Below, in pieces: positions 37,071 to 50,032 of a stretch of 64,000 nt of DNA. The notes below the pieces were generated by a model. The model worked only from the letters and a program-made list of their open reading frames with translations. It was not told the DNA's origin and made no database searches. The stretch covers positions 186,001-250,000 of the forward strand of contig NZ_LAJH01000021.1 of assembly GCF_001292625.1 (NCBI RefSeq). Reading direction: 5' to 3'. This DNA is from Shimia sp. SK013 (lineage in GTDB: Bacteria; Pseudomonadota; Alphaproteobacteria; Rhodobacterales; Rhodobacteraceae). The position numbers and the translations under genes were made by a program. Within the stretch, counting starts at the first letter, position 1. Every line of letters begins with the position of its first letter.

Positions 37071-37523
37071 ATGTCTGAGATGTCAAAGTCTATCCTCGAC
37101 CAGATGCTGTGTTTCGAGGTCTACAGCACCGAACACGCTTTTTCGCGGTTGTACAAAACACTGCTGGCGCCCTTGGGGCTGACCTATCCGCAGTTTCTGG
37201 TGATGATCCTGTTGTGGGAAAATGACGATCAGACGGTGAATGGCATTGGAGGGCAGTTGGGGCTGGAGAGCAGCACATTGACGCCACTCTTGAAGCGGAT
37301 GGAAAAGTCCGGATTTGTTCGGCGGCAGCGCGACGCCGAGGATGAACGCCGCGTGCGGGTGTCTTTAACCGAGACAGGCGACGCGTTGCGTCATGAAGCC
37401 AAGGGCATCGGCACCTGCGTCGCGGACGCGACCGGTATGCCTGGAGCTGAATTGAAAGCGTTGTTGTTGGAGTTGCGCAAGCTGCGCAACGGATTGGCGA
37501 CGCACAATTTGGCAGCCGAATAA
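37071..37523 (+). CDS. ohrR: OhrR, MarR-family organic-peroxide sensor
   Basis: 150 residues. Peroxidatic Cys14 sits in the family motif LCFEVYS; a second Cys at 116 (GTCVAD) suggests the 2-Cys OhrR type that forms an intersubunit disulfide. MarR winged helix in the middle: GIGGQLGLESSTLTPLLKRME and wing DAEDERRVRV. Represses ohr and itself until oxidised. ATG 37071 has GGAAGGAG upstream. Confidence 0.94.
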   Translation: MSEMSKSILDQMLCFEVYSTEHAFSRLYKTLLAPLGLTYPQFLVMILLWENDDQTVNGIGGQLGLESSTLTPLLKRMEKSGFVRRQRDAEDERRVRVSLTETGDALRHEAKGIGTCVADATGMPGAELKALLLELRKLRNGLATHNLAAE

Positions 37524-37671: not shown

Positions 37672-38748
37672 ATGGCGAATTTTGACGCGCAGGTGCGGGA
37701 ATCTCAGGCACAGGTTGAGGAAACACAGGCAAAGATTGCCGAACTGACAGGCCGGATCGATGCGGCGCGCAGTAAGATGAAGACGGGCGAAGATGTCGCC
37801 ATCGACATTGAAAACGCGACTTTGGACGATGTGCACGCGCATACAGAGGTGATGAACGCCAATATTGCCGAGCTGATTATGGGGCTTGATGATGTGACGG
37901 CTGCGTTTTCAAAAGATTTTGATCAGATGCGGGACAAGACGGGCTGGGAAAGCTTTGTCGGCATCTTTAGCCGTGGCAAATCAGAAAGCCTTCGGGCGGA
38001 GCGCATTAAGACCGCCAATATCGACGACAAATTACAGGATCTGATTGCGAAGTCGGACGTGATCACCCAGCTCTTGCAGGGTCAACTTTCGGTATTGGAA
38101 GAGCAGAAAGTCAAGGTTGAGACCAACCTGACTGAGACGCTGGATGAGCGGGAATTTACGGTGGGGGAACTGGAAACCTTGCGGGCTGAGATTTTGGCTA
38201 TGGACCCCAATATTATAGCGGTCGAGAACAAGATTGCGGTAGAACAGGACGCAGCAGCGCGTACCAAGCTTGAGACCGAGTTGGCGGACCTGAACAAGGC
38301 CTACAATGAGTTGGTGCAGCAGGAGCAGGTCAAACTGGCGAAGTCGCAAACGCTGGAGCGCTATATCGAGAAGGGTAAGACCTGGGTCGATTCACTGCAG
38401 AACCAGGCGGCGACGCAGATGGTGCTGATCAACAAGCTGCAGACAGACACCAAACAGCGTGTGGTGCTTTATGATGCGCTGACGAAATCTTTGAAAACCG
38501 CGCAGCAACAGGACATCGCGCACCGGATCAACGAGATTGGTGTGGAGACGGATAAGGAAGCGCAAGCGTCGATGGCGGCGATTGGCACGGCGACGAACCA
38601 GAAGATGGCGGACATGATGGAAGCCCATGAGGAGCACATGGTGTTTGCGCGCGATGTACTGGAGGCGAAGGCCAAGGCGGATGAGCGTTTTGCACGGCGT
38701 TTTGCCAAGATCGTCGAGAAGCACGATAAGAACTTGTATGGGGCGTAG
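37672..38748 (+). CDS. Coiled-coil protein, first gene of the uncharacterised AAA+ cluster
   Basis: 358 residues, soluble, almost wholly helical, rich in Glu, Lys, Ala and Gln. Heptad-like stretches at about 5-35, 110-250 and 285-345; a hydrophobic patch GWESFVGIFSRGK lies near residue 92. The arrangement (long helices, late segment AATQMVLINKLQTDTKQRVVL) recalls TelA/toxic-anion-resistance proteins, but I see no decisive motif and offer that only as a lead. RBS AGAGGGAG six bases before ATG 37672. Probable scaffold or adaptor for the downstream ATPase; two bases separate it from the next gene. Confidence 0.75.
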   Translation: MANFDAQVRESQAQVEETQAKIAELTGRIDAARSKMKTGEDVAIDIENATLDDVHAHTEVMNANIAELIMGLDDVTAAFSKDFDQMRDKTGWESFVGIFSRGKSESLRAERIKTANIDDKLQDLIAKSDVITQLLQGQLSVLEEQKVKVETNLTETLDEREFTVGELETLRAEILAMDPNIIAVENKIAVEQDAAARTKLETELADLNKAYNELVQQEQVKLAKSQTLERYIEKGKTWVDSLQNQAATQMVLINKLQTDTKQRVVLYDALTKSLKTAQQQDIAHRINEIGVETDKEAQASMAAIGTATNQKMADMMEAHEEHMVFARDVLEAKAKADERFARRFAKIVEKHDKNLYGA

Positions 38749-38750
38749 CT

Positions 38751-39110
38751 TTGGAACACCTCAGAAAGGACTGGCTGCCGTTGTTCAGGGCACCCCCGGC
38801 CTATCTGGCGAGGGGAGCCATTTTGCGGTTTCAGGAACCTGACAGACGGGCGGGCGTGTTGAGCTATGCCCAAGCCATCGGAAAGGAAACCTCAGGAGTA
38901 ATTAGTTTTTTTGGTGTGGACGGTCGTCCGTGGGGCTACGGGCGTAGCGATCTTCCGAAGGAATCTCTGTTTGAGGGGCGACCATACACCGTTTGCACGA
39001 AGTGGCTGCGGAATAACTTTATTCACATAGTGGAAATCAGTGACTTTGATTCTGTGTTTTTTGCCCGTCAATTCGAGCCCAATCCTGTTGATCGGAGTAG
39101 CTCAGTATGA
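38751..39110 (+). CDS. Hypothetical protein of the AAA+ cluster (119 residues, non-ATG start)
   Basis: No family recognised. Soluble, aromatic-rich (WLPLFRAP, GVISFFGVDGRPWGYGRSD, YTVCTKWLRNNFIHIVEI). No internal Met, so the start must be TTG: 38751, two bases after the preceding stop, or 38823, which has GGGGAG five bases upstream and would give 95 residues. Its TGA overlaps the ATG of the next gene (ATGA), supporting translation. Codon use looks less biased to G/C than its neighbours. Confidence 0.6.
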   Translation: MEHLRKDWLPLFRAPPAYLARGAILRFQEPDRRAGVLSYAQAIGKETSGVISFFGVDGRPWGYGRSDLPKESLFEGRPYTVCTKWLRNNFIHIVEISDFDSVFFARQFEPNPVDRSSSV

Positions 39111-40228
39111 CGACGTCAACCAAAGACCACACCGCTTTGATGGAGACCCGCGCGTCGCGGCGGTATTTCCAGAAGTTTGAGCGCATCACCGAGCATCTGA
39201 CGCAGGTCGCGGCGGCGCGGGCGGCCGAGGGTGCGATCGGGGAGGCTGAGGTTAAGGTTCTGACCCGCTATCTGTTGGCGATTGGCTATACCTTCAAAGC
39301 CCTGAGCATGAAGTACCTGCTGGTGGGCCGCGAGACGGGGCATTTTTTCGGCAGTCTGGCGATGGATGCGGTGGAGAGCGGCTTTCCAGTGTTCAATGAG
39401 TTGCTGGTCATGGCGAATGACGCGCAGCAGGCCGAGAGCCATTTGCGCAATATGCCGGACACAGAAACGCTCAAAGATGAGATGCTGCGGGTGATCGTGG
39501 GCGAACAGGAGATCCCTACAAGGCTGCAATTCGCGCTTAGCCAGCGGCTTTATTACGAAGAATTGCTGAAGGGGCATTTGTTCTGGGCGCAGAACCATCC
39601 TGAGGTGCAATGGCAGGGCAGTCTGTCAGAGCGGCGGCGGCAATATTTGATCCATTGGGCGGTTTATGACAGCCAGAACAACCTGCCGACGATCTATCTG
39701 ATGGATGTGGAGGACACCGGACGGCGGGCCTTGCCCAAGGATGAGCGACGCTGGCCTGAGGTGCAGGCGCACCTCATGGCACAGGCAGTAGGCGGGCTGA
39801 AGCTTGTGACCATTGCCAAGGGATTTGACGAGAGTTTTGACGATCTGCATCCCAAGCGGCTGCGGCGAATTCATGTAGGGCCGATGTATTCAAGCGCTTT
39901 CACTCGTCAGACGGGGCCGATCCGCGAGGTGTTGGAGGCCGCGCGGTCGCCTGAAGGTGAAGACTGGGCGCTGGCCTGGACCACCGAGGATTTGCACTCC
40001 GAGCAGGTTAAGGACGAGCGGTCCGGCTGGTTTGGTACCGTGGAGCGGCAGGTGTTTGCGCTTGATCCATTCTCGGGGCGGGGCGCGGATTTGGGGGCAA
40101 CCAGCATGGAGCGATCCCTGATCCTGCCGCAGCGACCGTTTCAGGCGTTGGAAGAATTGAACCCGCCGGGGTTTGGCAGCGTGACGAAATATGTGGTGAG
40201 CCCGCAGGGGCGGGTGTTGAGGTATTAA
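39107..40228 (+). CDS. Conserved hypothetical protein of the AAA+ cluster (373 residues)
   Basis: No domain recognised. Soluble; the first half is helical (YFQKFERITEHLTQVAAARAAEG, VKVLTRYLLAIGYTFKALSMKYL), the second mixed alpha/beta (NLPTIYLMDVEDTGRRAL, GLKLVTIAKGFDESFDDLH, RIHVGPMYSSAFTRQ). No signal peptide or membrane segment. Overlaps the preceding gene by 4 bases and is followed after 83 bases by the AAA+ ATPase, so it is probably its functional partner. Length and composition give no enzymatic hint. Confidence 0.72.
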   Translation: MTTSTKDHTALMETRASRRYFQKFERITEHLTQVAAARAAEGAIGEAEVKVLTRYLLAIGYTFKALSMKYLLVGRETGHFFGSLAMDAVESGFPVFNELLVMANDAQQAESHLRNMPDTETLKDEMLRVIVGEQEIPTRLQFALSQRLYYEELLKGHLFWAQNHPEVQWQGSLSERRRQYLIHWAVYDSQNNLPTIYLMDVEDTGRRALPKDERRWPEVQAHLMAQAVGGLKLVTIAKGFDESFDDLHPKRLRRIHVGPMYSSAFTRQTGPIREVLEAARSPEGEDWALAWTTEDLHSEQVKDERSGWFGTVERQVFALDPFSGRGADLGATSMERSLILPQRPFQALEELNPPGFGSVTKYVVSPQGRVLRY

Positions 40229-40271
40229 GTCGGCTGCAAGTGATCGGCCCCCTGGGCCAAGCCTGCGGCGC

Positions 40272-40294
40272 GGATATCTGAGGCAAGAGGAAAA
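40272..40294 (+). repeat. Intergenic dispersed repeat GGATATCT..GGCAAGAGGAAA, copy 1
   Basis: 23 bases just before the AAA+ gene; 19 of 23 identical to 47178-47200 in the soeA-soeB gap. Similar GATATTT...AAGA elements after GC-rich hairpins are, from memory, common between genes in Rhodobacteraceae. Confidence 0.5.
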
Positions 40295-40311
40295 TTGAGG
40301 GTGTGGAATAG

Positions 40312-42249
40312 ATGAGCGTGACCGGTGATTTGATGGAGCTGCGCGAAGAGGATATTCGCAAGCATTATGAGGCGGCTGTTGGGATGCTCGACGGCTTTGA
40401 TCATACGCCTCGGATTGCGAAAGGGCGAGAGGTCGCCGCGGCGCCGGGACGGTCCAGCGGGATTGGCACGCGGAGGCGGTTTCGGTCTACCACGCCGGGT
40501 TTGGTGACACGCTCGACTGCGCGGCCTGAAGGCGTGCATCTGGTGGAGCGCATTGAGGGCGCGGGCGGAGAAGATCCCTTGGTGTCGCCCACGCAGGCCA
40601 ACGTGCAGCATGGGTTGCGGCGGTCGCTGGCGATTGCGCTGGCGGTGGGTGAGAATTTCGCCGAGGCGTCGGGATTGGCCGCGTTGAAGCGGGACAATCT
40701 GGCGGGCGCGCTGGGCGCGGATAAAAAGGCGGCGTTTTCCGAGCTGTTGGCGGCTGAGGCTTTGGCTGTGAGCTATGTCTTTGCCAATGCCACGTCGTTT
40801 CTGTTGGCGCCTTTGTTGGGCGAGACACAGGTTGAGGTTGGCGAAGTCGAGGAAGTCTTGACGGACAATGCGCAGCTTGCGTTGCATGGCGCGCTTTGGG
40901 AGTTGGATCAGGACATCGCCGCGTTGGTGACGGACGAGGATCGGCTTGTGGCTTGCGTTTGTGCCTTTGCCGAGCAGTTGATGGAGAAGGTGGCTTTGCG
41001 GGCGCAGAATGCGCCGCAGTTGGCGGCATTTGTGGGCGCGAGTTGGAAGGTTCAGGCGGATGATCTGACGATCAATGGTTTTACGCCGGCGCGGGCGGCG
41101 AAGGGCAGCAAGCTGACGATGACCTTCAAGAAACCCAACGAGGTTGTGGGCAATCACATCGCCAAATATCAGGCGATGAAGCTCGCCAAGATGCTGATGG
41201 CCTATGACTTTGATCGGCGGCTCAACCCGTTTGCCGAGTTGGGTGGGTTCATCTTTACCTTCATGGGGGATGGCGCGCCGGGGACGGGGAAAACCACGCT
41301 TATTCAGATGATGGCGGGCTTGGTGAATGACTACTGTCAGGTGGCGGGTTATCCGTTCCGGTATCAGAACTTTGGCGTCGACAATATCGACAGCTATCAA
41401 GGTAAATCAGGGCAGAATGCCAAGGCTTTTGTGCAGAATGTTCTGGATCCGCAGGTGATCGGTTTTGGCACAATTGATGACATCGACCAGATCGCAGGCA
41501 AGCGCGGGGATCGGCAATCGAGCGCGGGTCAACAGGAGGTTACGGCGGTCTTTATGGAGGCTTTTGCGGGCGCCAACACGGTGGTGCGCGGCAACTGTAC
41601 GTTCGGGATGTTTTCCAACTATCCCGAGAACGTGGACGACGCGCTGCGCCAGCGGGCCGGGGCGCGGTTCTTGGTGGATGGGCCGCAGACGCGGGAGGAT
41701 TATATCGACATCCTTGCGCTGTTGATGGGCAAGAACCACGACATCGCGCTGGGGGCGCATGAGCTGTTTGAAGCGCAGATGATCCAGAAGGCCGTGGCGG
41801 CCTCGTTTGAAAGCCACAACAAGCCGCATGAGGAGGGGTTGCTCAACGTGTTTGATCGCGTGCATGGACAGGTCGGGGATCTGGACACCATTGCCAAGAT
41901 GGGTACGTACCTGAAGGCCATTCAGGAGGCTGATCCCCGGTTCACGGGGCGGGCGATCAAGAACATCACGGATGCCGTGAAGGTGCGGGCGATGGACTTT
42001 GAATTGCCGGACGCATGGATGGCGCAGCCAGAGCTGTTTTTGACGAAGGATTACGACACCAAAAAAGACATGATTGGTGAGCTTCGGGTGCCGATCACCA
42101 CCGAGATGGTGGTGCAGGAGATCAACCGTTATGCGGATTCTGAGTTCCGCTATGCCGATAAGTCGGATGAGGTGGCGATTGAGAATATGGTCCGCGATAT
42201 GCAGCGGAGCGAGGCGGCGAAGCGGCGGTATCTGGAGGGGAAGGCGTAA
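40312..42249 (+). CDS. AAA+ ATPase, core of the uncharacterised cluster
   Basis: 645 residues. N-terminal ~300-residue domain of unknown fold with a basic, probably disordered stretch at about 40-75. AAA+ domain: Walker A GDGAPGTGKTT near 319-329, Walker B GFGTIDDIDQIAGKR near 384-398, Asn-containing sensor-1 FGMFSNYPENVDD and an arginine-finger candidate RQRAGARF near 445-452. C-terminal ~190 residues are helical. Cytoplasmic, no TM. The classical AAA+ pattern suggests a hexameric remodelling motor rather than a MoxR protein with a vWA partner: no vWA gene is adjacent. The RBS is weak, and the preceding 83 bases contain a dispersed repeat. Confidence 0.85.
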   Translation: MSVTGDLMELREEDIRKHYEAAVGMLDGFDHTPRIAKGREVAAAPGRSSGIGTRRRFRSTTPGLVTRSTARPEGVHLVERIEGAGGEDPLVSPTQANVQHGLRRSLAIALAVGENFAEASGLAALKRDNLAGALGADKKAAFSELLAAEALAVSYVFANATSFLLAPLLGETQVEVGEVEEVLTDNAQLALHGALWELDQDIAALVTDEDRLVACVCAFAEQLMEKVALRAQNAPQLAAFVGASWKVQADDLTINGFTPARAAKGSKLTMTFKKPNEVVGNHIAKYQAMKLAKMLMAYDFDRRLNPFAELGGFIFTFMGDGAPGTGKTTLIQMMAGLVNDYCQVAGYPFRYQNFGVDNIDSYQGKSGQNAKAFVQNVLDPQVIGFGTIDDIDQIAGKRGDRQSSAGQQEVTAVFMEAFAGANTVVRGNCTFGMFSNYPENVDDALRQRAGARFLVDGPQTREDYIDILALLMGKNHDIALGAHELFEAQMIQKAVAASFESHNKPHEEGLLNVFDRVHGQVGDLDTIAKMGTYLKAIQEADPRFTGRAIKNITDAVKVRAMDFELPDAWMAQPELFLTKDYDTKKDMIGELRVPITTEMVVQEINRYADSEFRYADKSDEVAIENMVRDMQRSEAAKRRYLEGKA

Positions 42250-42630
42250 GTGTTTGTGCTCGACAGCATTGGGTTTGTGAACACGGGGTTACCGTTGATT
42301 GTGCTTGGCGTGCTTGCGATGCTGATCCCGCGTTTTGTGGTGGATCACGAGACGCGGTCCCATCACAAAGTGATGCTGGGGATTGCTGTGTCGGCGGTGA
42401 TCCTGTTTGGCGTCGGCTACGGGATCTCCGTGGTTTTGACCAACGCACGCGGTGTGCACGCTATGACGCTTGGGTCGAGGCCGGAGCTTGGAACAGCACT
42501 TTGGATGCATTCACGGCTGTCTTTGATGGCGGCGATTGTCTGGGCGCCGATCTTGGGATTGGTCTGGTTTGGCCAAGCGCAGGGCGTGGAAGCGCGGCGC
42601 GGGCAGGAAATGGCGCAGGAGGGGCAGTGA
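42250..42630 (+). CDS. Small membrane protein of the AAA+ cluster (126 residues)
   Basis: GTG 42250 follows the ATPase stop directly, with GGAGGGG upstream inside that gene. Three TM helices: FVNTGLPLIVLGVLAMLIP, VMLGIAVSAVILFGVGYGI and LSLMAAIVWAPILGLVWFG. C-terminal tail charged. Family unknown. Position suggests a membrane anchor or target for the ATPase. Confidence 0.72.
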   Translation: MFVLDSIGFVNTGLPLIVLGVLAMLIPRFVVDHETRSHHKVMLGIAVSAVILFGVGYGISVVLTNARGVHAMTLGSRPELGTALWMHSRLSLMAAIVWAPILGLVWFGQAQGVEARRGQEMAQEGQ

Positions 42631-42836
42631 TGACAGCGATGAGGGTCGCGCCCGACCTGGTGGGCGCTTTGGATTGCTTTGGAATTGGCGATTTGGTGCA
42701 AGGAGCGCAGGTGTTGGTGTGTGTGATTGACGGTGCAAACGCGCCCTCCGGGGGGAGGTCGGGCGCGGCCCGGCTAAAGTCCGGGCGGAAGAAAACTGGA
42801 AGTCTTGGAGATCAACATGGCGCTTTCATACTTTGA
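42630..42836 (+). CDS. Possible small protein (68 residues) between cluster membrane genes
   Basis: ATG 42630 shares its A with the preceding TGA and has a strong AGGAGGGG five bases upstream, so it would be translated by coupling. The product begins MTAMRVAPDLVGALDCFGIG and has a basic Gly/Ser/Arg-rich second half. It overlaps the next gene by 20 bases. Composition is not clearly protein-like, so it may be a leader or spurious. Confidence 0.4.
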   Translation: MTAMRVAPDLVGALDCFGIGDLVQGAQVLVCVIDGANAPSGGRSGAARLKSGRKKTGSLGDQHGAFIL

Positions 42837-43146
42837 GTACGCGACCTTGGCGGTTGGGGGCCTAATGGCCGTTGCCGCTGTTGCCGGAGTTTATCTCAGT
42901 GTGCGAATGCTGCGGCCATTTTCATGGCCCAAATTATTGATTCCGCTCGCGGTGCTGTTCGCGCTCTATATTGTTTATAACTTGCTTGTCGTGGCCTTTC
43001 TGATTTTCGCAGGTGCGGCGGCACCGAATACGGAGCCGCTCGCGCAATGGGTTGAGGTGTTTGGCTTATACCTCTGGCCTTTCGTGTATTTGATCGGGAT
43101 GCTTGTCGTAGCCTTGACGACATCTCAGGGAGGGGCGGATGCATAG
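42817..43146 (+). CDS. Small membrane protein of the AAA+ cluster (109 residues)
   Basis: ATG 42817 with GGAG six bases upstream. Three TM helices: YATLAVGGLMAVAAVAGVYL, LLIPLAVLFALYIVYNLLVV with FLIFAGAAA, and VFGLYLWPFVYLIGMLVVAL. Short C-terminal tail overlaps the start of the 449-residue gene by 8 bases. No family recognised; base composition is somewhat more A/T-rich than its neighbours. Confidence 0.7.
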   Translation: MALSYFEYATLAVGGLMAVAAVAGVYLSVRMLRPFSWPKLLIPLAVLFALYIVYNLLVVAFLIFAGAAAPNTEPLAQWVEVFGLYLWPFVYLIGMLVVALTTSQGGADA

Positions 43147-44488
43147 ACTGATCCAACGTGGCCTGATGTTTGGCAACCTGATCGAGGTGGCCTCGCCCAT
43201 TCTGGTCGAGCGCTATAATCGTGCGCTGAAACACCTGACGGGCAAAACCACCGACCTCACCGATTTTCACATCGATGTTTCGGGCTATTCCCCCGAGGTG
43301 GGCGATGCGCTGGGGGATCATCTGTACCTCAACCAAGGGGGCTGTAACCGGCAGTTCATCTTGTTGACCACGGATCAGAAAACCGCGCCGCTGCTGAATG
43401 CGAAGTTCTCTAACAGCCGCGATATTTTGCGCCATTTCATTGAAGAGAACGAGCCGCAGCTATTTGCCTTAACCGCGCGTGATTCTGTGGCCGGTGAGTT
43501 GGTGAATTCGGTGTTTTCCGTGAGCGATCCAGTGCGGTTATTTGATATTCGCAAGGTCACGGTTGAGGCCGACACGACTGAGGGCACGCTGCGCGATGCG
43601 GAGAAGTTGGGGGCACTGGCGGAACGGTTCAAACAGGATGAGGATGGATGGTTTGACGACGTGCTGATTGCCGACATGATCACGCTGGCGAAACGCACGG
43701 GGGATGTGACGCGTAATCCGGTGACTTTGCGCCATATGGCGTTTGATCAGGAGGATTTCTGGACGGCGCATTTTGGTGGGGTTTATTTCTTTCGCGGCGT
43801 TGGGCATCCGGCGGCGATCACCAGTGGGATCAAGGGCGATTTGGGCAAGCTGCCGATCAAATACACGTTTGATTTTAAAGACAGAAACCAGATTGCGAAG
43901 TTCTTTGACTACAACGATCTGGTGGAGCCGATTGTGAAGGCACGGGGCATCGATGCGAGTGCGATCCTGCGGCAGAAGATGGATTTCATTGTGGTCGATG
44001 CAGCGCAGAATGCGGGTGTTGACCTGACGGGGGCAACTCGGCGGGATATCCGCCGGTTGGCGCGAAATCACGCGGATCATTTGCCACCGGAATATCACGG
44101 GCTGCGCGAGATGGTGGATTGGGCGGAAAACGAAGGCAAATGGCCTCGGATTTCCAGCGACCATCCGGCATATTTCTATACGCTGCGCGCCACAGACACG
44201 GATCAGGCGGATTTGGTGAATATGCTGTTGGCGGAACTGGCGCCCAAAGACATCCGGCAGTTGTTCATTTGCCACAAGGAGGTGTTTTACCGCCTCTATC
44301 AGGGCTGGACTGACACCAAAAAGAGCTTTGTTGCGGATTTCCTTGAGCGGGAATACCAAGTGGATAAGGCGGGAGCGCGGGCGGCGTTGTTCGGCCATGA
44401 TGCACCTTTGGAAATGCCACGGGTGCGCCGGAGGGCAAGTGACGATATGATCGACCGCGTGGGACCTTGGGGCGCGGTGAGGAGATAG
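43139..44488 (+). CDS. Conserved protein of the AAA+ cluster (449 residues; DUF6638-like from memory)
   Basis: Soluble, mixed alpha/beta. Notable stretches: LIQRGLMFGNLIEVASPILV at the start, TDFHIDVSGYSPEVGDALGD, HFGGVYFFRGVGHPAAITSG, RGIDASAILRQKMDFIVVDA and the C-terminal DRVGPWGAVRR. I recall a roseobacter family named DUF6638 with this appearance, unverified. No nucleotide-binding or catalytic motif found. It overlaps the preceding membrane gene by 8 bases and is 2 bases from the next, so it belongs to the cluster. Large and well-formed, hence a probable main component. Confidence 0.78.
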   Translation: MHRLIQRGLMFGNLIEVASPILVERYNRALKHLTGKTTDLTDFHIDVSGYSPEVGDALGDHLYLNQGGCNRQFILLTTDQKTAPLLNAKFSNSRDILRHFIEENEPQLFALTARDSVAGELVNSVFSVSDPVRLFDIRKVTVEADTTEGTLRDAEKLGALAERFKQDEDGWFDDVLIADMITLAKRTGDVTRNPVTLRHMAFDQEDFWTAHFGGVYFFRGVGHPAAITSGIKGDLGKLPIKYTFDFKDRNQIAKFFDYNDLVEPIVKARGIDASAILRQKMDFIVVDAAQNAGVDLTGATRRDIRRLARNHADHLPPEYHGLREMVDWAENEGKWPRISSDHPAYFYTLRATDTDQADLVNMLLAELAPKDIRQLFICHKEVFYRLYQGWTDTKKSFVADFLEREYQVDKAGARAALFGHDAPLEMPRVRRRASDDMIDRVGPWGAVRR

Positions 44489-44490
44489 CG

Positions 44491-44757
44491 ATGTTTGCAC
44501 TGGGAAGATTGGCCGTTGTCGGCTTTGTGGTTCTGACCATCATCTACTTTTGTTTGTCGTGGTATTCGCGCGGTGTGCGGCGTGACAAGCTGGAAGCTGA
44601 GTGGGACGAAGAAGGCATGACGGGAGATCGTGAAGCCTTTGTCGACGAAGGTTTGCGCGATTATGACGGCAGCTTGCGTCGCAAGTTGATCTGGGGTGTC
44701 TATATCATTCCGGTGACAGCGGTTATCACGCTGATCTACTTTATGAATTTCCACTAG
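44491..44757 (+). CDS. Small membrane protein of the AAA+ cluster (88 residues)
   Basis: ATG 44491, RBS GAGGAG six bases upstream. Two TM helices (LAVVGFVVLTIIYFCLSWY and WGVYIIPVTAVITLIYFM) flank an acidic loop of about 40 residues (LEAEWDEEGMTGDREAFVDEG). No family recognised. Confidence 0.72.
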   Translation: MFALGRLAVVGFVVLTIIYFCLSWYSRGVRRDKLEAEWDEEGMTGDREAFVDEGLRDYDGSLRRKLIWGVYIIPVTAVITLIYFMNFH

Positions 44758-44770
44758 GGGGACCCGAGAG

Positions 44771-45421
44771 ATGGTCTATGTAAAATGGGGTTTCTGGGGG
44801 CTGTTCTGGCTGCTGGTGGCGGCGTTCTTTCACTATACATTGCCGCAGAATGACATTGTGCGTGTCACGGATACCTATGAAAAGCGGATCGATTTTGGCG
44901 AGAACTCGATTTTTTGGGCCAAGTCGGATGCAGGTAATGCGGAAACGACTGTGAACCGCGACATATTTTTCATTCAGACCAAGTTTCCGAACGACAAGGT
45001 AATGGTCTATCGCAATGAAGACACGTCGGCGGGTTGGCCGCCCTATTTTAAGTTCGATACGTCGAACCTGCAGGCCGAGGCCGCGGATCTGAAATCCAGC
45101 GCCGATGCACCGCAATGGGTCGCCATCAAGCATTATGGCTGGCGCAACGAGTTCTTGTCGATTTATCCCAATGCGGTTGGCGTTAAAGCTGTGGACAGCC
45201 CGGATGTGACGTTCATACCGTGGCTCAATATCGCCATCCTGATTGTGTTTTTTGCATTTGTCTGGGCCATTTGGGTGCGATGGAGGCGGTTCCGCGAAGC
45301 CCGTATTGATCCGGTTCTTGAGGACATGGGCGACAGTTTTGAGGCGGCCGGTGACAACATCGCCGAAAAGCGCGGACGGTTCCGCGCTTGGCTTGATACG
45401 TTCAGAGGCCAGGCGCGGTAA
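44771..45421 (+). CDS. Membrane-anchored protein with periplasmic domain, last gene of the AAA+ cluster
   Basis: 216 residues. N-terminal TM (WGFWGLFWLLVAAFFHYTLP), about 120 extracytoplasmic residues (beta-rich; includes DIVRVTDTYEKRIDFGENSI and KFPNDKVMVYRNEDTSAGW), then a second TM (WLNIAILIVFFAFVWAIWVRW) and a cytoplasmic charged tail. The DIVRVTDTY-type periplasmic region recalls DUF1523-like proteins, which I cannot confirm. RBS weak. Convergent with soeC, whose stop is the next base. Confidence 0.75.
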   Translation: MVYVKWGFWGLFWLLVAAFFHYTLPQNDIVRVTDTYEKRIDFGENSIFWAKSDAGNAETTVNRDIFFIQTKFPNDKVMVYRNEDTSAGWPPYFKFDTSNLQAEAADLKSSADAPQWVAIKHYGWRNEFLSIYPNAVGVKAVDSPDVTFIPWLNIAILIVFFAFVWAIWVRWRRFREARIDPVLEDMGDSFEAAGDNIAEKRGRFRAWLDTFRGQAR

Positions 45422-46294
45422 TCAGCGCATGCCGTAGTAGAGGCCGACCACGTGTTCGGCCTCTGCGAAAAACAGCCAGCGCGAGGTTGCGACGCCTGCG
45501 ATATGGCTGAGCACCGCCAAGGCCGCGAAGATGTGGCTAAAGGGCAGAAGCAGCAGGATCAGCGGCAGCGCGAAGGTTAGGCCAAAGGCAATAACGCGCA
45601 ATTTCATCGCGTGTTTGCGGCCGATCACATAGACGAATTCTTTCATCAGATAGTTGGGCGATGTGTGTGGATGCGCCATGGACCGGACCGTGCCTCTCTC
45701 GCCCAAACCCGTGGCTGTTCCAAGGTCTGTTCCGCTGTTTGCGAACGCCTTGTCTCCGCGTTGCCACCACGCCAGTTGTACGGCGGCGGCAAAGAACAGG
45801 AGCGCGATTGCAATTGTCGTGCGACCTGACAAAAGGGCACCACCAGCGATGGAAAATGTTAGGTAAAGTGCTGGAGTCAAAGGGGTTTTCCAGCGCGGCA
45901 CAGTGGCGAGTTGGCCATAGATCATCGATGTGGTGAAGACAGTTGCCACCGATAACGCCGCGCCGATCCAGCCCAGAATGGCGATGTGGATGTTCAAAAA
46001 GATGAGGGCGGCGGCGTAGAGGCCAAGGATGCAAAGCGCGCCGACGGCGCAGACACCTTCGCGCGATAGCCAACTTGTGCGCCATTGGCTGAAGGCGCGC
46101 CAGGCGCGTTCGGGATGGCCAAGGTGGAATGTGGAAGACAAGAGGCCCCCGACCGCGAGGGCAAAGGCAATGGCAAAGAAGATGAATCCGGTCATGCCTG
46201 TTGGCGGCGTTGGGTCAATGCCGAGCCAAAAGAGCAGCCCAAAGCCGAGGCCTGAGAGGGTCGAAAAGATGATAACTGACGGGGCGGGATGCAT
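45422..46294 (-). CDS. soeC: Membrane anchor subunit, DmsC/SoeC type
   Basis: 290 residues, eight or nine TM helices, DmsC family: STLSGLGFGLLFWLGI start, STFHLGHPERAWRAF, WRTSWLSREGV, SRWLFFAEAEHVVGLYYG end. Quinone-interacting anchor of a cytoplasm-facing molybdoenzyme complex. ATG overlaps the soeB stop, so translation is coupled. The xsc/pta context identifies the complex as SoeABC rather than DMSO reductase. Confidence 0.87.
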   Translation of the reverse strand: MHPAPSVIIFSTLSGLGFGLLFWLGIDPTPPTGMTGFIFFAIAFALAVGGLLSSTFHLGHPERAWRAFSQWRTSWLSREGVCAVGALCILGLYAAALIFLNIHIAILGWIGAALSVATVFTTSMIYGQLATVPRWKTPLTPALYLTFSIAGGALLSGRTTIAIALLFFAAAVQLAWWQRGDKAFANSGTDLGTATGLGERGTVRSMAHPHTSPNYLMKEFVYVIGRKHAMKLRVIAFGLTFALPLILLLLPFSHIFAALAVLSHIAGVATSRWLFFAEAEHVVGLYYGMR

Positions 46295-47055
46295 CAGGCG
46301 GACCCTCCGGGAATTTTGTCCAGCGTTTTGTCGAGCCAGCTGAGGAAGCCGCGCGGTTCGTCGGCGACGGGGGCCAGCATCGGCGCCAGAAGGGATTGAT
46401 CATCCCATGAATCCTTGAGGCGCGGCGGAAGGTATTTGTTCACCGGCTTGGTGCCCATTTCCGGCATCAGGTCAAAACCGCCTCTGGATTCAACCAGTTG
46501 GCTGACGTCTGAGTTGGGATCACCCAGGTCGCCAAAGTGCCGGGCACCTGCGGGACAGGTGCGTACGCAAGAGGGGATCTGATCTTCTTCGGGCAGGTTT
46601 TCGTTGTAGATGCGATCGACGCAAAGGGTGCATTTCTTCATCACGCCTTCGGCTTGATCCATCTCACGCGCACCGTAGGGACAGGCCCATGCGCAGAGGC
46701 CGCAGCCGATGCAGCTGTCCTCATTGACCAAGACAATGCCATCCTCGACCCGCTTGTAGCTGGCGCCGGTGGGGCAGACGGTGACGCAAGGGGCGTCCTC
46801 GCAGTGCAGGCAGGATTTGGGGAAGTGCACGGTTTGGGCGGAGCCTGCTTCGGGTTGCACTTCGTAGCTGTGCACGCGGTTGAGGAAGGTGCCCATGGGT
46901 TCGGTGCCATAGGGGCGTTGGTCCGACAGGGGCGCGCCGTAGTTTTCGGTGTTCCAGCCTTTGCAGGAGATCACGCAGGCGTGGCAGCCGACACAGGTAT
47001 CAAGGTCGATCACAAGGCCGAGTTTGCGGTCGGTGGAGGTGGGAAGCGTGGTCAT
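46294..47055 (-). CDS. soeB: Four-cluster ferredoxin subunit, SoeB type
   Basis: 254 residues from ATG 47055 (GGAGG upstream). Cysteine groups for four [4Fe-4S] clusters: CVGCHACVISC at 21-31, CLHCEDAPCVTVCP, CIGCGLCAWACP and KCTLCVD with a late CVRTCP. Passes electrons from SoeA to SoeC. The C-terminal tail (PVADEPRGFLSWLDKTLDKI) is longer than in DmsB. Separated from soeA by 151 bases of repeats and hairpins. Confidence 0.9.
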   Translation of the reverse strand: MTTLPTSTDRKLGLVIDLDTCVGCHACVISCKGWNTENYGAPLSDQRPYGTEPMGTFLNRVHSYEVQPEAGSAQTVHFPKSCLHCEDAPCVTVCPTGASYKRVEDGIVLVNEDSCIGCGLCAWACPYGAREMDQAEGVMKKCTLCVDRIYNENLPEEDQIPSCVRTCPAGARHFGDLGDPNSDVSQLVESRGGFDLMPEMGTKPVNKYLPPRLKDSWDDQSLLAPMLAPVADEPRGFLSWLDKTLDKIPGGSA

Positions 47056-47075
47056 GAGTGGGCCTCCAGATGGGG

Positions 47076-47108
47076 GGCTGTATCGCGTTGGTATCGCGTC
47101 GGTATCGC
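47076..47108 (+). repeat. 11-bp-period repeat array, copy B (three units)
   Basis: GGCTGTATCGC, GTTGGTATCGC, GTCGGTATCGC, then GACTG. Nearly the same as copy A (24392-24424, minus strand), including the GAC-x-G end. Lies between soeA and soeB, 21 bases before the soeB start on the minus strand. Confidence 0.75.
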
Positions 47109-47177
47109 GACTGCGCGGTTTTTGGGTCCTGGCATGGGGGCGCTGCCCCTTGCCGCAGCACAGCTGCGGCCTCCCCG

Positions 47178-47200
47178 GGATATTTTGGGCAAGAGGAAAG
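47178..47200 (+). repeat. Intergenic dispersed repeat, copy 2, with adjacent hairpins
   Basis: GGATATTTTGGGCAAGAGGAAAG, 19 of 23 bases shared with 40272-40294. Next to it are hairpins GGGGC/GCCCC (about 47136-47149) and GCCGCAG/CTGCGGC (47152-47170). It begins 6 bases after the soeA stop. Confidence 0.55.
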
Positions 47201-47206
47201 TGTGTG

Positions 47207-50032
47207 TCATTTGCCCACCTTCCATTTGAGATCTGACGGTCCTTGGGCGACCGGAGATTGGATCGGGTCAAAGGTCGGTTGGCTTTCGGAAGGCGCGACC
47301 ACTTTTTCGAGTTTCACGCGCAGGTCGAACCATGCGGCTTGGCCCGTTATGGGATCGGAGTTGGCCCAACGTAGTCCGTCGCCTTTGGGAGGCAGCAGCT
47401 CGTGGATCAGGTGATTGAGCAGAAAGCCTTTGTTGGATTCTGGTGCGTCCTCGGAGAGGGCCCAGGTGCCTTTGCGTTTGCCGATGGCGTTCCATGTCCA
47501 GACGGTGTTTTCGTTGAGAGCCGCCTGATGCGCGACCGGCACGGTGATTTCACCATGCACGGAGGTCACGCGGGCCCAGTCGCCTTCGGCAAAGCCGTGT
47601 TTCTGCCAGAGCTTGGTGGGCAGATAGAGGGGGTTTTCGCCGTGCAACTGACGCAGCCATGCGTTTTGGGTGCCCCAGCTGTGATACATCGCCATCGGGC
47701 GTTGCGTTAAGGCGTGCACGTCGAATTCTTCGGGGTCGATGCTGGCGTCCTCTAGTGGCGGATACCAGATCGGCAAGGGGTCCATGACCTCCTTGAGGCG
47801 ATCGCGCAGGTGTTCGGGTGGTTGGCGATCCCCGTGGCCTTCGGCGGCCCGTTGAAATTTGCGCATTGGTTCCACGTAGAGTTGGAACAGGAAGGGTTGC
47901 GGCGCATCAAACAGGCCGATTTTTACTGCCCAGTCCTGATAGTCCATGTTCCACGGTTTCATGTAGCGGGCGGCGTCTGGCACATGTTGGATCGCGAAAC
48001 CGCCATTTTCGATGTAGCGGTCCAACTGACCCGGGTTGACCTCGCCACGTCCGAACTGGTCACCGTCCTCGCCGCGGAAACCGGCCAGAGGGCCCACACC
48101 AGGGCGGCGTTCGTGGTTCACGATGTAGTCGGCGTAGTCTTTCCATTTGGGCGTGCCGTCCTCATTGAGGAAACCCGGCAGGCCGATGCGCGCGCCCAAT
48201 TCAACCAGCACAGATTGGAAGCCGCGCACGTCGCGGTCGGGTTCCACCACGGGCCAGCGGATTGCATCGGCGGCACCGTCGGCCTCGCAGATGGGGCGGT
48301 CTAGCAGCGAGATACAATCGTGGCGTTCCAGATAGGTGGTGTCTGGCAGGATCAGGTCGGCGTAGGCGACCATCTCGGAGCTATAGGCATCCGAATAGAT
48401 GATGCGCGGGATCTTGTAGCGGCCATCCTCGTTGCGGTCGGTCAACATCTTGATCACGCCCGAGGTGTTCATGGACGAGTTCCACGACATGTTGGCCATG
48501 TACATGAATAGGGTGTCGATCGGATAAGGATCACCGGCGTGGGCGTTGGAGATCACCATATGCATGAGGCCGTGCACGGACATGGGGTTTTCCCAGGTGA
48601 AGGCCTTGTCGATGCGGCACGCTGTGCCGTCGTCATTGATTTGCAGGTCTTCGGGACCACGCGGGAAGCCGAGGTGGGGACCGGCCAGCGGTTTGCCGGG
48701 GCGGCCAACGCCATGCGGGGTTGGGTGGGCCTCTACCGGTTTGGGATAAGGCGGTTTGAAGCGGAAGCCGCCGGGGACCTCGACGGTGCCCAGCAGGATT
48801 TGCAGCACATGCAGTGCGCGGCAGGTCTGAAAGCCGTTGGAGTGGGCCGAGATGCCACGCATGGCGTGAAAGCTGACGGGGCGGCCGGTCATGGTTTTGT
48901 GGGTCTCGCCGCGGAAATCGGTCCATTCCTGATCAAGCTCGAAGGCTTCGTCAAAGGCGACGCGCGCAAGTTCAGCTGCGATGGTTTTGATTTTCTGGGC
49001 GGAGATGCCAGTGCGCTCGGCGACGTTTTCGGGTGCATATTGCGGGTCGAGGTATTTCTCGGCCATCAGGTGCATGACGGTTTTGTGGGTCACGCCTGCG
49101 TGGCGATATTGCGCGGAGAGGTCGGGCTGCACGCCTTTCTGGTCAAACGGTGTGAGCTTGCCGGTGGTGCGGTCGATGACCAGTTGTTTGCCGTCGTCGT
49201 CGCGCATCAGCAAGCCGGTTTCGCCGTCTATTAGCACGGGCGCGTTGGTGTATTGTGCGAGATAGTGCAGGTCGATTTTGCCGGCCTTCATCAATTCATG
49301 CACCAGCGCGAGCACAAACAACCCATCGGTGCCCGGTGTGATGCCGACCCATTCATCCGCCACGGCGTTGTAGCCAGATCGTACGGGGTTCACACCAATG
49401 ACCTTGGCACCGCGCGCTTTGATCTTGCCGATGCCCGCTTTGATGGGGTTGCTGTCGTGATCCTCGGCGACGCCAAAAATCATAAAGAGTTTGGTGTGAT
49501 CCCAGTCGGGCTGACCAAACTCCCAGAATGCGCCGCCCATAGTATATATGCCCGCCGCCGCCATGTTCACCGAGCAAAAGCCGCCGTGGGCTGCGTAGTT
49601 AGGGGTGCCAAAGTGTTGCGCCCAGAAAGATGTGAAGGACTGCGACTGGTCGCGTCCGGTGAAGAAGGCGAGTTTATGCGGTGCGGTTTCGTGCAGTTCT
49701 GTCAGCCAGCCAACGGCCGTTGACAGGGCTTCCTCCCACTCGATTTCCACATACTCGCCAGAGCCGCGCGGGCCGACGCGTTTGAGAGGCTTTTTCAGGC
49801 GAGAGGGCGCGTTGACCTGCATGATGCCTGCTGAGCCTTTGGCGCAAAGCACACCTTTGTTGACCGGATGATCTCGGTTGCCCTCGATATAGGCGACCTC
49901 TTTCTTGCCGTCGGGACCGTCCTTCATGTGCACGTTGATGCCGCATCGGCAGGCGCACATATAGCAGGTGGTCTGGCGCACCTCGTCAGAGACTTTGGGC
50001 GAGGTGTCGAGCTTGGGCTGCTGAAAGGTCAT
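47207..50032 (-). CDS. soeA: Molybdopterin sulfite dehydrogenase catalytic subunit, SoeA type
   Basis: 941 residues, DMSO-reductase superfamily. No Tat signal: the N-terminus is plain cytoplasmic (MTFQQPKLDTSPKV). [4Fe-4S] ligands Cys23, 26, 30 and 63; probable Mo-ligand Cys153 in HGGFCSVNM. MGD-binding regions include GVNPVRSGYNAVADEWVGI and YSDAYSSEMVAYADLILPDT. The cytoplasmic location, gene order A-B-C and the neighbouring xsc-pta match SoeABC, which oxidises sulfite to sulfate and removes the product of Xsc. Polysulfide or DMSO reductase is the alternative by family alone, but those carry Tat signals and other contexts. Confidence 0.87.
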   Translation of the reverse strand: MTFQQPKLDTSPKVSDEVRQTTCYMCACRCGINVHMKDGPDGKKEVAYIEGNRDHPVNKGVLCAKGSAGIMQVNAPSRLKKPLKRVGPRGSGEYVEIEWEEALSTAVGWLTELHETAPHKLAFFTGRDQSQSFTSFWAQHFGTPNYAAHGGFCSVNMAAAGIYTMGGAFWEFGQPDWDHTKLFMIFGVAEDHDSNPIKAGIGKIKARGAKVIGVNPVRSGYNAVADEWVGITPGTDGLFVLALVHELMKAGKIDLHYLAQYTNAPVLIDGETGLLMRDDDGKQLVIDRTTGKLTPFDQKGVQPDLSAQYRHAGVTHKTVMHLMAEKYLDPQYAPENVAERTGISAQKIKTIAAELARVAFDEAFELDQEWTDFRGETHKTMTGRPVSFHAMRGISAHSNGFQTCRALHVLQILLGTVEVPGGFRFKPPYPKPVEAHPTPHGVGRPGKPLAGPHLGFPRGPEDLQINDDGTACRIDKAFTWENPMSVHGLMHMVISNAHAGDPYPIDTLFMYMANMSWNSSMNTSGVIKMLTDRNEDGRYKIPRIIYSDAYSSEMVAYADLILPDTTYLERHDCISLLDRPICEADGAADAIRWPVVEPDRDVRGFQSVLVELGARIGLPGFLNEDGTPKWKDYADYIVNHERRPGVGPLAGFRGEDGDQFGRGEVNPGQLDRYIENGGFAIQHVPDAARYMKPWNMDYQDWAVKIGLFDAPQPFLFQLYVEPMRKFQRAAEGHGDRQPPEHLRDRLKEVMDPLPIWYPPLEDASIDPEEFDVHALTQRPMAMYHSWGTQNAWLRQLHGENPLYLPTKLWQKHGFAEGDWARVTSVHGEITVPVAHQAALNENTVWTWNAIGKRKGTWALSEDAPESNKGFLLNHLIHELLPPKGDGLRWANSDPITGQAAWFDLRVKLEKVVAPSESQPTFDPIQSPVAQGPSDLKWKVGK

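Follow-up and report, generated by a model that had tools for sequence, protein, structure and literature searches.

We analysed a cassette of genes at positions 37672–45421 of a 64,000-nucleotide stretch of DNA from Shimia sp. SK013, part of a 4.05-Mb Rhodobacteraceae genome; the whole stretch is called the window here, and coordinates are positions within it. Inspection of open reading frames (ORFs) and their junctions supported nine co-directional genes, where an earlier note on this DNA had claimed nine to ten. Four of them make up a core in the fixed order g1–g3–AAA–DUF6638, built around a classical AAA+ ATPase, and the intervals between the ATPase and DUF6638 (slot 2) and between g1 and g3 (slot 1) are slots for exchangeable cargo. 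The cassette comprises the following features.

37672–38748, forward strand: g1, 358 residues, helical/coiled-coil, core; residues 218–305 (central to C-terminal) are best conserved
38751–39110, forward strand: g2, 119-residue ORF with a TTG start and an ATGA overlap with g3; variable cargo of slot 1
39107–40228, forward strand: g3, 373 residues, soluble, core; N part helical, C part beta-rich
40312–42249, forward strand: g4 (AAA), classical AAA+ ATPase of 645 residues, core; the N-terminal ~300 residues are unique
42250–42630, forward strand: g5, 126 residues, three transmembrane (TM) segments; GTG start immediately after the ATPase stop; opens slot 2
42643–42771, no strand: inverted-repeat (REPIN-like) element of 129 bp in the g5–g6 interval
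42817–43146, forward strand: g6, about 109 residues, three TM segments; ATG with upstream GGAG, overlaps the DUF6638 start; variable cargo of slot 2
43139–44488, forward strand: g7 (DUF6638), 449 residues, core; disordered tail terminating VGPWGAVRR
44491–44757, forward strand: g8, 88-residue small membrane protein with two hydrophobic segments
44771–45421, forward strand: g9 (DUF1523), 216 residues; TM segment, periplasmic domain, TM segment and cytosolic tail, a topology predicted from sequence

Most of the tight junctions described in the earlier note are present: an ATGA sits at 39107, a GTG start at 42250 and an overlap at 43139, and two bases separate DUF6638 from the gene at 44491. Its overlap at 42630 opens a 68-codon ORF (42630–42836) that we rejected, as it spans the 129-bp inverted-repeat element and is therefore probably not a gene. 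For g6, the ATG at 42817 is preferred, and a TTG at 42805 is a less likely start. Scans of Pfam, NCBIfam and PADLOC assigned no cassette genes to families beyond the ATPase, DUF6638 and DUF1523, and g2 had no match in any of the three. DUF6638 matched PF20343 (E 8.5e-248, 822.8 bits against a cut-off of 27) and g9 matched PF07509 (E 2.9e-68); these two, and a rhizobial DUF2333 protein (PF10095), are direct Pfam members of families without a known function. The earlier note could name a function only for the ATPase; two further proteins do have named families.

The core genes were found together with great regularity. Among 398 proteobacterial genomes, DUF6638 was detected in 26, g3 in exactly those 26, and g1 in the same 26 plus five further genomes with weaker matches. 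The survey of gene order covered 33 regions fetched from sampled and related genomes, and 80 named genomes. The order and strand of g1–g3–AAA–DUF6638 were kept wherever the genes were present, both in a set of 114 loci and in Vibrio and S. meliloti; Rhodobacteraceae, Rhizobiaceae, Halomonas and the megaplasmids of Vibrio were all covered. At 4 of the 114 loci (L136, L152, L161 and L168), the fetched stretch yielded no DUF6638; L152 stops at a contig edge, and L168 displayed the ATPase alone. Dispersal of the homologues, which the earlier note had named as the outcome that would speak against a common machine, is the reverse of what we observed: the co-occurrence in 26 genomes and the constant order keep these partners together far beyond chance, and identify g1, g3 and DUF6638 as obligate soluble partners of the AAA+ ATPase. 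The proposal that all nine or ten genes belong to one machine did not survive, as g2, g5 and g6 sit in variable slots and genes of the g2 and g6 type are replaced by unrelated genes elsewhere.

The core was present in 24 of the 25 genomes of the window's genus. Identity of g1 was 72–98% within Rhodobacteraceae and Halomonas, 41% in Rhizobiaceae and 35% in Vibrio. In V. parahaemolyticus and V. vulnificus, the four core genes stand bare beside mfd on plasmids of ~0.9 Mb, with ATPases 37–38% identical to that of the window; the loci L184, L185 and L187 are on such Vibrio plasmids, which have their own mfd and an RNase H family gene. The Halomonas cassette is of the Rhodobacteraceae type, including g8 and DUF1523, and this layout, together with an ATPase identity of 75%, points to transfer. 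Four rhizobial loci (L179, L180, L181 and L182) have tdk, a distant g1 homologue and DUF2333, and lack AAA, g3 and DUF6638; it seems that g1 can work with DUF2333 alone there, or that these loci are reduced remnants. As for a viral origin, a pattern scan of IMG/VR found no relative of the ATPase or DUF6638, and DUF6638 was not found in phage records.

The interval between the ATPase and DUF6638 measured at least 250 bp in 89 of 110 loci, 60–250 bp in 12 and less than 60 bp in nine. A second, smaller slot lies between g1 and g3, and the g3–AAA interval is rarely occupied. The joins downstream served as an internal control: over 99 loci, the DUF6638–g8 and g8–DUF1523 intervals reached at most 188 and 31 bp and held no gene-sized insert. 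The largest ORF in slot 2 was co-directional with the core in 75 of 85 loci. In the 63 slots where one ORF fills at least 60% of the interval, 4-base overlaps of the ATGA type are often seen at both ends: about 26 of these ORFs begin with such an overlap at the ATPase stop, and about 36 close with one at the DUF6638 start, suggesting that translational coupling is re-established whenever the cargo is exchanged.

Turnover of the cargo was evident even between close relatives. Of 34 pairs of loci in which both members held cargo and whose ATPases shared at least 95% identity, 27 had unrelated cargo. Mapped on an ATPase tree of 110 loci, the cargo fell into 43 classes, 29 of them single, and required at least 75 changes, with 14 changes needed for the 14 members of the GDTLAG class alone; these figures are approximate, and some of the counted ORFs may be spurious. 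The closest relative of the window cassette, L083 (ATPase 98.1% identical), has g5 in common with it and differs in slot 1, where an unrelated 168-residue ORF stands in place of g2, and in the second gene of slot 2, where a 333-residue putAbiC/AbiP-like protein occupies the place of g6. Both flanks of the cassette (37071–37523 and the 45422–50032 side) are syntenic within the window's genus, which argues that the core is inherited while the cargo moves. Raised divergence of the core at the slot borders, a sign of co-exchange, was not seen at the DNA level.

We compared 70 slot ORFs and 69 flanking control ORFs with Pfam and PADLOC. Pfam families in the slots included the Mrr restriction endonuclease, Fic, putAbiC, AbiJ_NTD4, DUF2971 (two), DUF559 (four, clearest in rhizobial loci), DUF3825, HATPase and DUF4145; further matches in PADLOC were to candidate families and to an HNH type IV enzyme. 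Two proteins matched PDC-S31, the PADLOC prefix PDC denoting "phage defence candidates" (PMC11514479). The control ORFs fell mostly into metabolic Pfam families and gave only three single PADLOC matches. The qualitative contrast between cargo and control is clear. Most cargo is uncharacterised, and the recognised part is mostly of conflict type (Mrr, HNH, DUF2971, AbiJ, putAbiC). Small proteins with two to three TM segments were common, including 16 of the g5 type and 14 two-TM coiled-coil proteins of the GDTLAG class; the five best matches of this class lie at the cassette, and weaker ones lie elsewhere. At two loci, the cargo of slot 2 weakly resembles DrmA and has a weak domain of HATPase type (L107:9929–10966 and L104:9952–10986); five scattered genomes (L076, L111, L157, L159 and L163) have in slot 2 a soluble family of 254–266 residues without a Pfam family.

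Among the three window cargo genes, g5 belongs to a recurrent, cassette-specific membrane family, the only such one of g2, g5 and g6. Across 60 genomes, 14 of its 15 strong matches adjoin DUF6638, and by this measure g5 resembles an optional subunit, not a passenger.

The inverted-repeat element between g5 and g6 has arms at 42643–42658 and 42756–42771 that are 94% complementary (GCGCCCGACC...GGTCGGGCGC), with an RNA fold z of −2.8. The exact motif occurs once in the whole window genome, at the cassette, and within the window's genus one exact variant is found in at most one copy per genome, each time within the cassette (6 of 6 genomes). Other genera have related copies and variants at dispersed sites. 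The slots are enriched in REPIN-like repeats, with 27 matches across the three gaps of the core and 5 in the flanks downstream. We do not claim the inverted repeat as a dedicated site of cargo recombination, because other copies and variants lie elsewhere.

The earlier identification of g4 as a classical AAA+ ATPase with Walker A, Walker B and sensor 1 was borne out by a match to Pfam AAA (PF00004, E 1.5e-11, 45.3 bits against a cut-off of 21.2) and by motifs that are invariant across 34 loci plus Vibrio: Walker A GDGxPGTGKT, YQGKS, Walker B GFGTIDD, N436, and R446/R448/R452. Y362 within YQGKS is an aromatic residue at the position of pore loop 1, and the sensor-1 Asn and the paired Arg are invariant from Rhodobacteraceae to Vibrio. 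Over the same range, Walker B reads DD and not DE in every member, the second acidic residue being Asp (D390), which is unusual. The closest solved chains in a single-sequence phmmer search were an i-AAA protease and fidgetin-like 1, followed by Pex6, Vps4 and katanin, and the ATPase profile found nothing at E 1e-5 among PDB sequences. With other classical AAA ATPases (i-AAA/FtsH, Vps4, katanin, fidgetin-like 1, Pex6 and Msp1), g4 has in common the Walker A, the pore-loop aromatic, the sensor-1 Asn and the paired Arg near the second region of homology; it differs from them in the Walker B Asp and in its own N-terminal part of ~300 residues, which contains no protease, MIT or other known domain. 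This motif set is that of a threading ring, and from it we infer that g4 forms a hexamer and threads substrates. The partners are unrelated by sequence to the endosomal sorting complex ESCRT-III, and no MIT or Snf7 match was found in g4 or in 33 g1 members, unlike a Vps4–ESCRT-III pair.

The other three core proteins gave few leads, as profiles of g1, g3 and DUF6638 against PDB sequences returned nothing convincing. We found no Pfam family for g1, and rejected it as a TelA protein (profile comparison probability 0.1%, no TelA-family match). A true TelA gene (PF05816) was seen elsewhere in the same genome, at G000:C14:57630–58619. The AlphaFold2 model of g3 had a predicted local distance difference test score (pLDDT) of 86.4, and the best result of its fold search was a fructose bisphosphatase at VIA Z 4.8 (root-mean-square deviation 4.9, 142 residues aligned), with all Z below 5; its C-terminal half gave several T-fold enzymes at Z 3.6–4.7, too weak for use. 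For DUF6638 (pLDDT 84.8, below 50 in the tail at 421–449), a fold search of the PDB and viral models found no match at E <0.001 and a best VIA Z of 4.0. We make no claim of a new fold, because a 449-residue model can hide single domains. Relationship between g3 and DUF6638 was rejected (hhalign probability 0.1%), and we found no paper on DUF6638. Its disordered tail (44403–44488) carries a terminal GPWG motif that is conserved in most Rhodobacteraceae, doubled in L062 and L063, and absent from DUF6638 of Rhizobiaceae, Vibrio and Halomonas. It is possible that GPWG is a docking motif.

Membrane genes accompany the core in most loci. In Rhodobacteraceae, g8 and then DUF1523 follow DUF6638 with median gaps of 1 bp and 11 bp (99 loci). 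The place after DUF6638 is taken by DUF2333 in Rhizobiaceae, where tdk lies upstream, and neither DUF1523 with g8 nor DUF2333 adjoins the Vibrio core; g8 was not found in the Rhizobiaceae and Vibrio loci. A membrane partner is therefore usual but replaceable, and the membrane-tied machine of the earlier note holds in that most loci have dedicated membrane genes, but must be qualified because these depend on lineage. The literature on DUF1523 that we found consists of passing mentions, and those in connection with phages are uninformative entries in tables, one being a weak match; for DUF2333 we found only a passing mention in a gene list near a type VI secretion locus.

We tentatively favour the reading, to which we give somewhat less than an even chance, that the cassette encodes a membrane-tied threading AAA+ complex in a conflict or defence module with swappable accessory effectors. 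The four core genes would form an ATP-driven protein-remodelling complex in which a ring-forming classical AAA+ ATPase pulls a protein substrate through its central pore, and g1 (helical, possibly polymeric), g3 and DUF6638 would be its obligate substrate, adaptor or regulator subunits. Ties to the inner membrane would be provided by g8 and DUF1523 in Rhodobacteraceae and by DUF2333 in Rhizobiaceae. Slot-2 genes, turning over very fast, would be produced in step with the core via translational coupling, and the core may work with, or restrain, these swappable effectors and may also act without them. The whole would serve in cellular conflict (anti-phage or similar), the role made most likely by the recognisable cargo, which consists mostly of nucleases and Abi-type, DUF2971, HEPN-like and membrane proteins.

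Several observations weigh against this reading. The core proteins match no defence family in PADLOC except for a weak match of the ATPase to TRIP13 (5e-5); below E 0.01, the only other match is again of the ATPase, to IetA (0.0076). Unlike most defence systems, the core is stably inherited by vertical descent in the window's genus, where 24 of 25 genomes have it, and many cores have an empty slot, including those of Vibrio and Halomonas. A conservative count of PADLOC matches shows modest enrichment in the cargo (at least 8 of 70 ORFs, with at most 3 of 69 in the control), Mrr or DUF2971 cargo could act alone, and the rhizobial DUF559 cargo, which lies amid DNA of repeat-like character, may be a mobile gene in its own right. 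Lastly, with Asp and not Glu as the second Walker B residue, ATP hydrolysis is not assured.

A close rival, itself tentative and placed a little lower, sees in the core an AAA+ machine for housekeeping or envelope stress that plays no part in conflict, and in its operon a safe landing place for independent defence and ORFan genes that hitchhike there. The vertical stability of the core, which is chromosomally syntenic in the genus, and the frequency of empty slots favour this explanation: the cargo is optional, with 9 of 110 slots shorter than 60 bp and no cargo in Vibrio or Halomonas, and it includes families known to act alone (Mrr, Fic). Hitchhiking, however, does not readily account for cargo that enters specific joins and spares the equally tight DUF6638–g8–DUF1523 joins, for exact coupling at both ends that persists after exchange, or for g5, which sits at the same place and is cassette-specific. 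These position-specific, coupled and cassette-specific elements favour a joint function of core and cargo.

The remaining explanations appear weaker. The variable genes could be substrates or membrane targets of the AAA+ machine in quality control or disassembly, diversifying for reasons unrelated to phages, such as envelope protein variation; many cargo proteins are indeed small with two to three TM segments (the 16 of g5 type and 14 of GDTLAG), and among the closest AAA relatives are ATPases that extract membrane proteins or act in disassembly, but much of the cargo is soluble, including nucleases and Abi-type domains, and we regard this as improbable. It is more improbable still that the slots arose without selection, as a side effect of inverted repeats between genes that are prone to insertion: the enrichment of REPIN-like repeats in the slots (27 against 5) fits such an origin, whereas the same repeats occur elsewhere in other genomes and most cargo ORFs abut core genes without repeats and with coupling kept. 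Least credible of all is a tellurite or stress system of TerY/TelA type, which has a similar outline of helical protein, ATPase and membrane genes and from which the earlier note had already set the cassette apart, rightly in our analysis; no TelA, TerD, vWA or kinase match was found in the nine proteins, g1 reached a probability of 0.1% against TelA, and the genome's TelA gene lies elsewhere.

Among known systems, the favoured conflict module resembles defence operons with embedded genes, which likewise combine a conserved core with a constant internal position that receives unrelated, defence-like genes, often coupled. Payne and colleagues reportedly described such genes in operons of bacteriophage exclusion (BREX) and type I restriction systems, and since embedded defence genes in operons are already known, the slot principle would not be new. 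The cassette has unrelated genes at a fixed join, turnover among close relatives and defence-type families, though with a partial share of defence genes, and it differs from these operons in a core that matches no known defence system and is vertically stable. In the literature we found no description of the core or of the combination of core and slot. The cyclic-oligonucleotide-based antiphage signalling system (CBASS) with HORMA/TRIP13 similarly combines an AAA+ regulator (here the weak TRIP13 match) with swappable effectors in an operon; unlike in CBASS, no CD-NTase and no HORMA protein was found among the cassette proteins. A bolder proposal, which we consider rather doubtful, is that the cassette represents a novel proteobacterial system, modular in build, for immunity or conflict, in which the four-protein AAA+ core, made up of uncharacterised families, would sense or execute, and one coupled slot would take differing effectors (nuclease, HEPN-like, Abi or membrane) swapped between strains with a near-identical core.

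The uncharacterised four-gene AAA+ module persists across two proteobacterial classes and is common in marine Rhodobacteraceae, and the operon offers a natural experiment in which the core stays constant and the slot gene changes at strain level. If core and cargo act together, they would constitute a new effector-swapping conflict system and supply a catalogue of new effectors; if not, the cassette would be a defence hotspot inside an ordinary operon, its slot a simple landmark, easy to align, in the search for new defence genes.

In the window, a regulator of MarR/OhrR type, recognised by eye, lies just upstream of the cassette (37071–37523). Downstream and converging on it (45422–50032) are three genes, also judged by eye, for a membrane anchor, an Fe-S protein and a protein of the molybdopterin oxidoreductase type.

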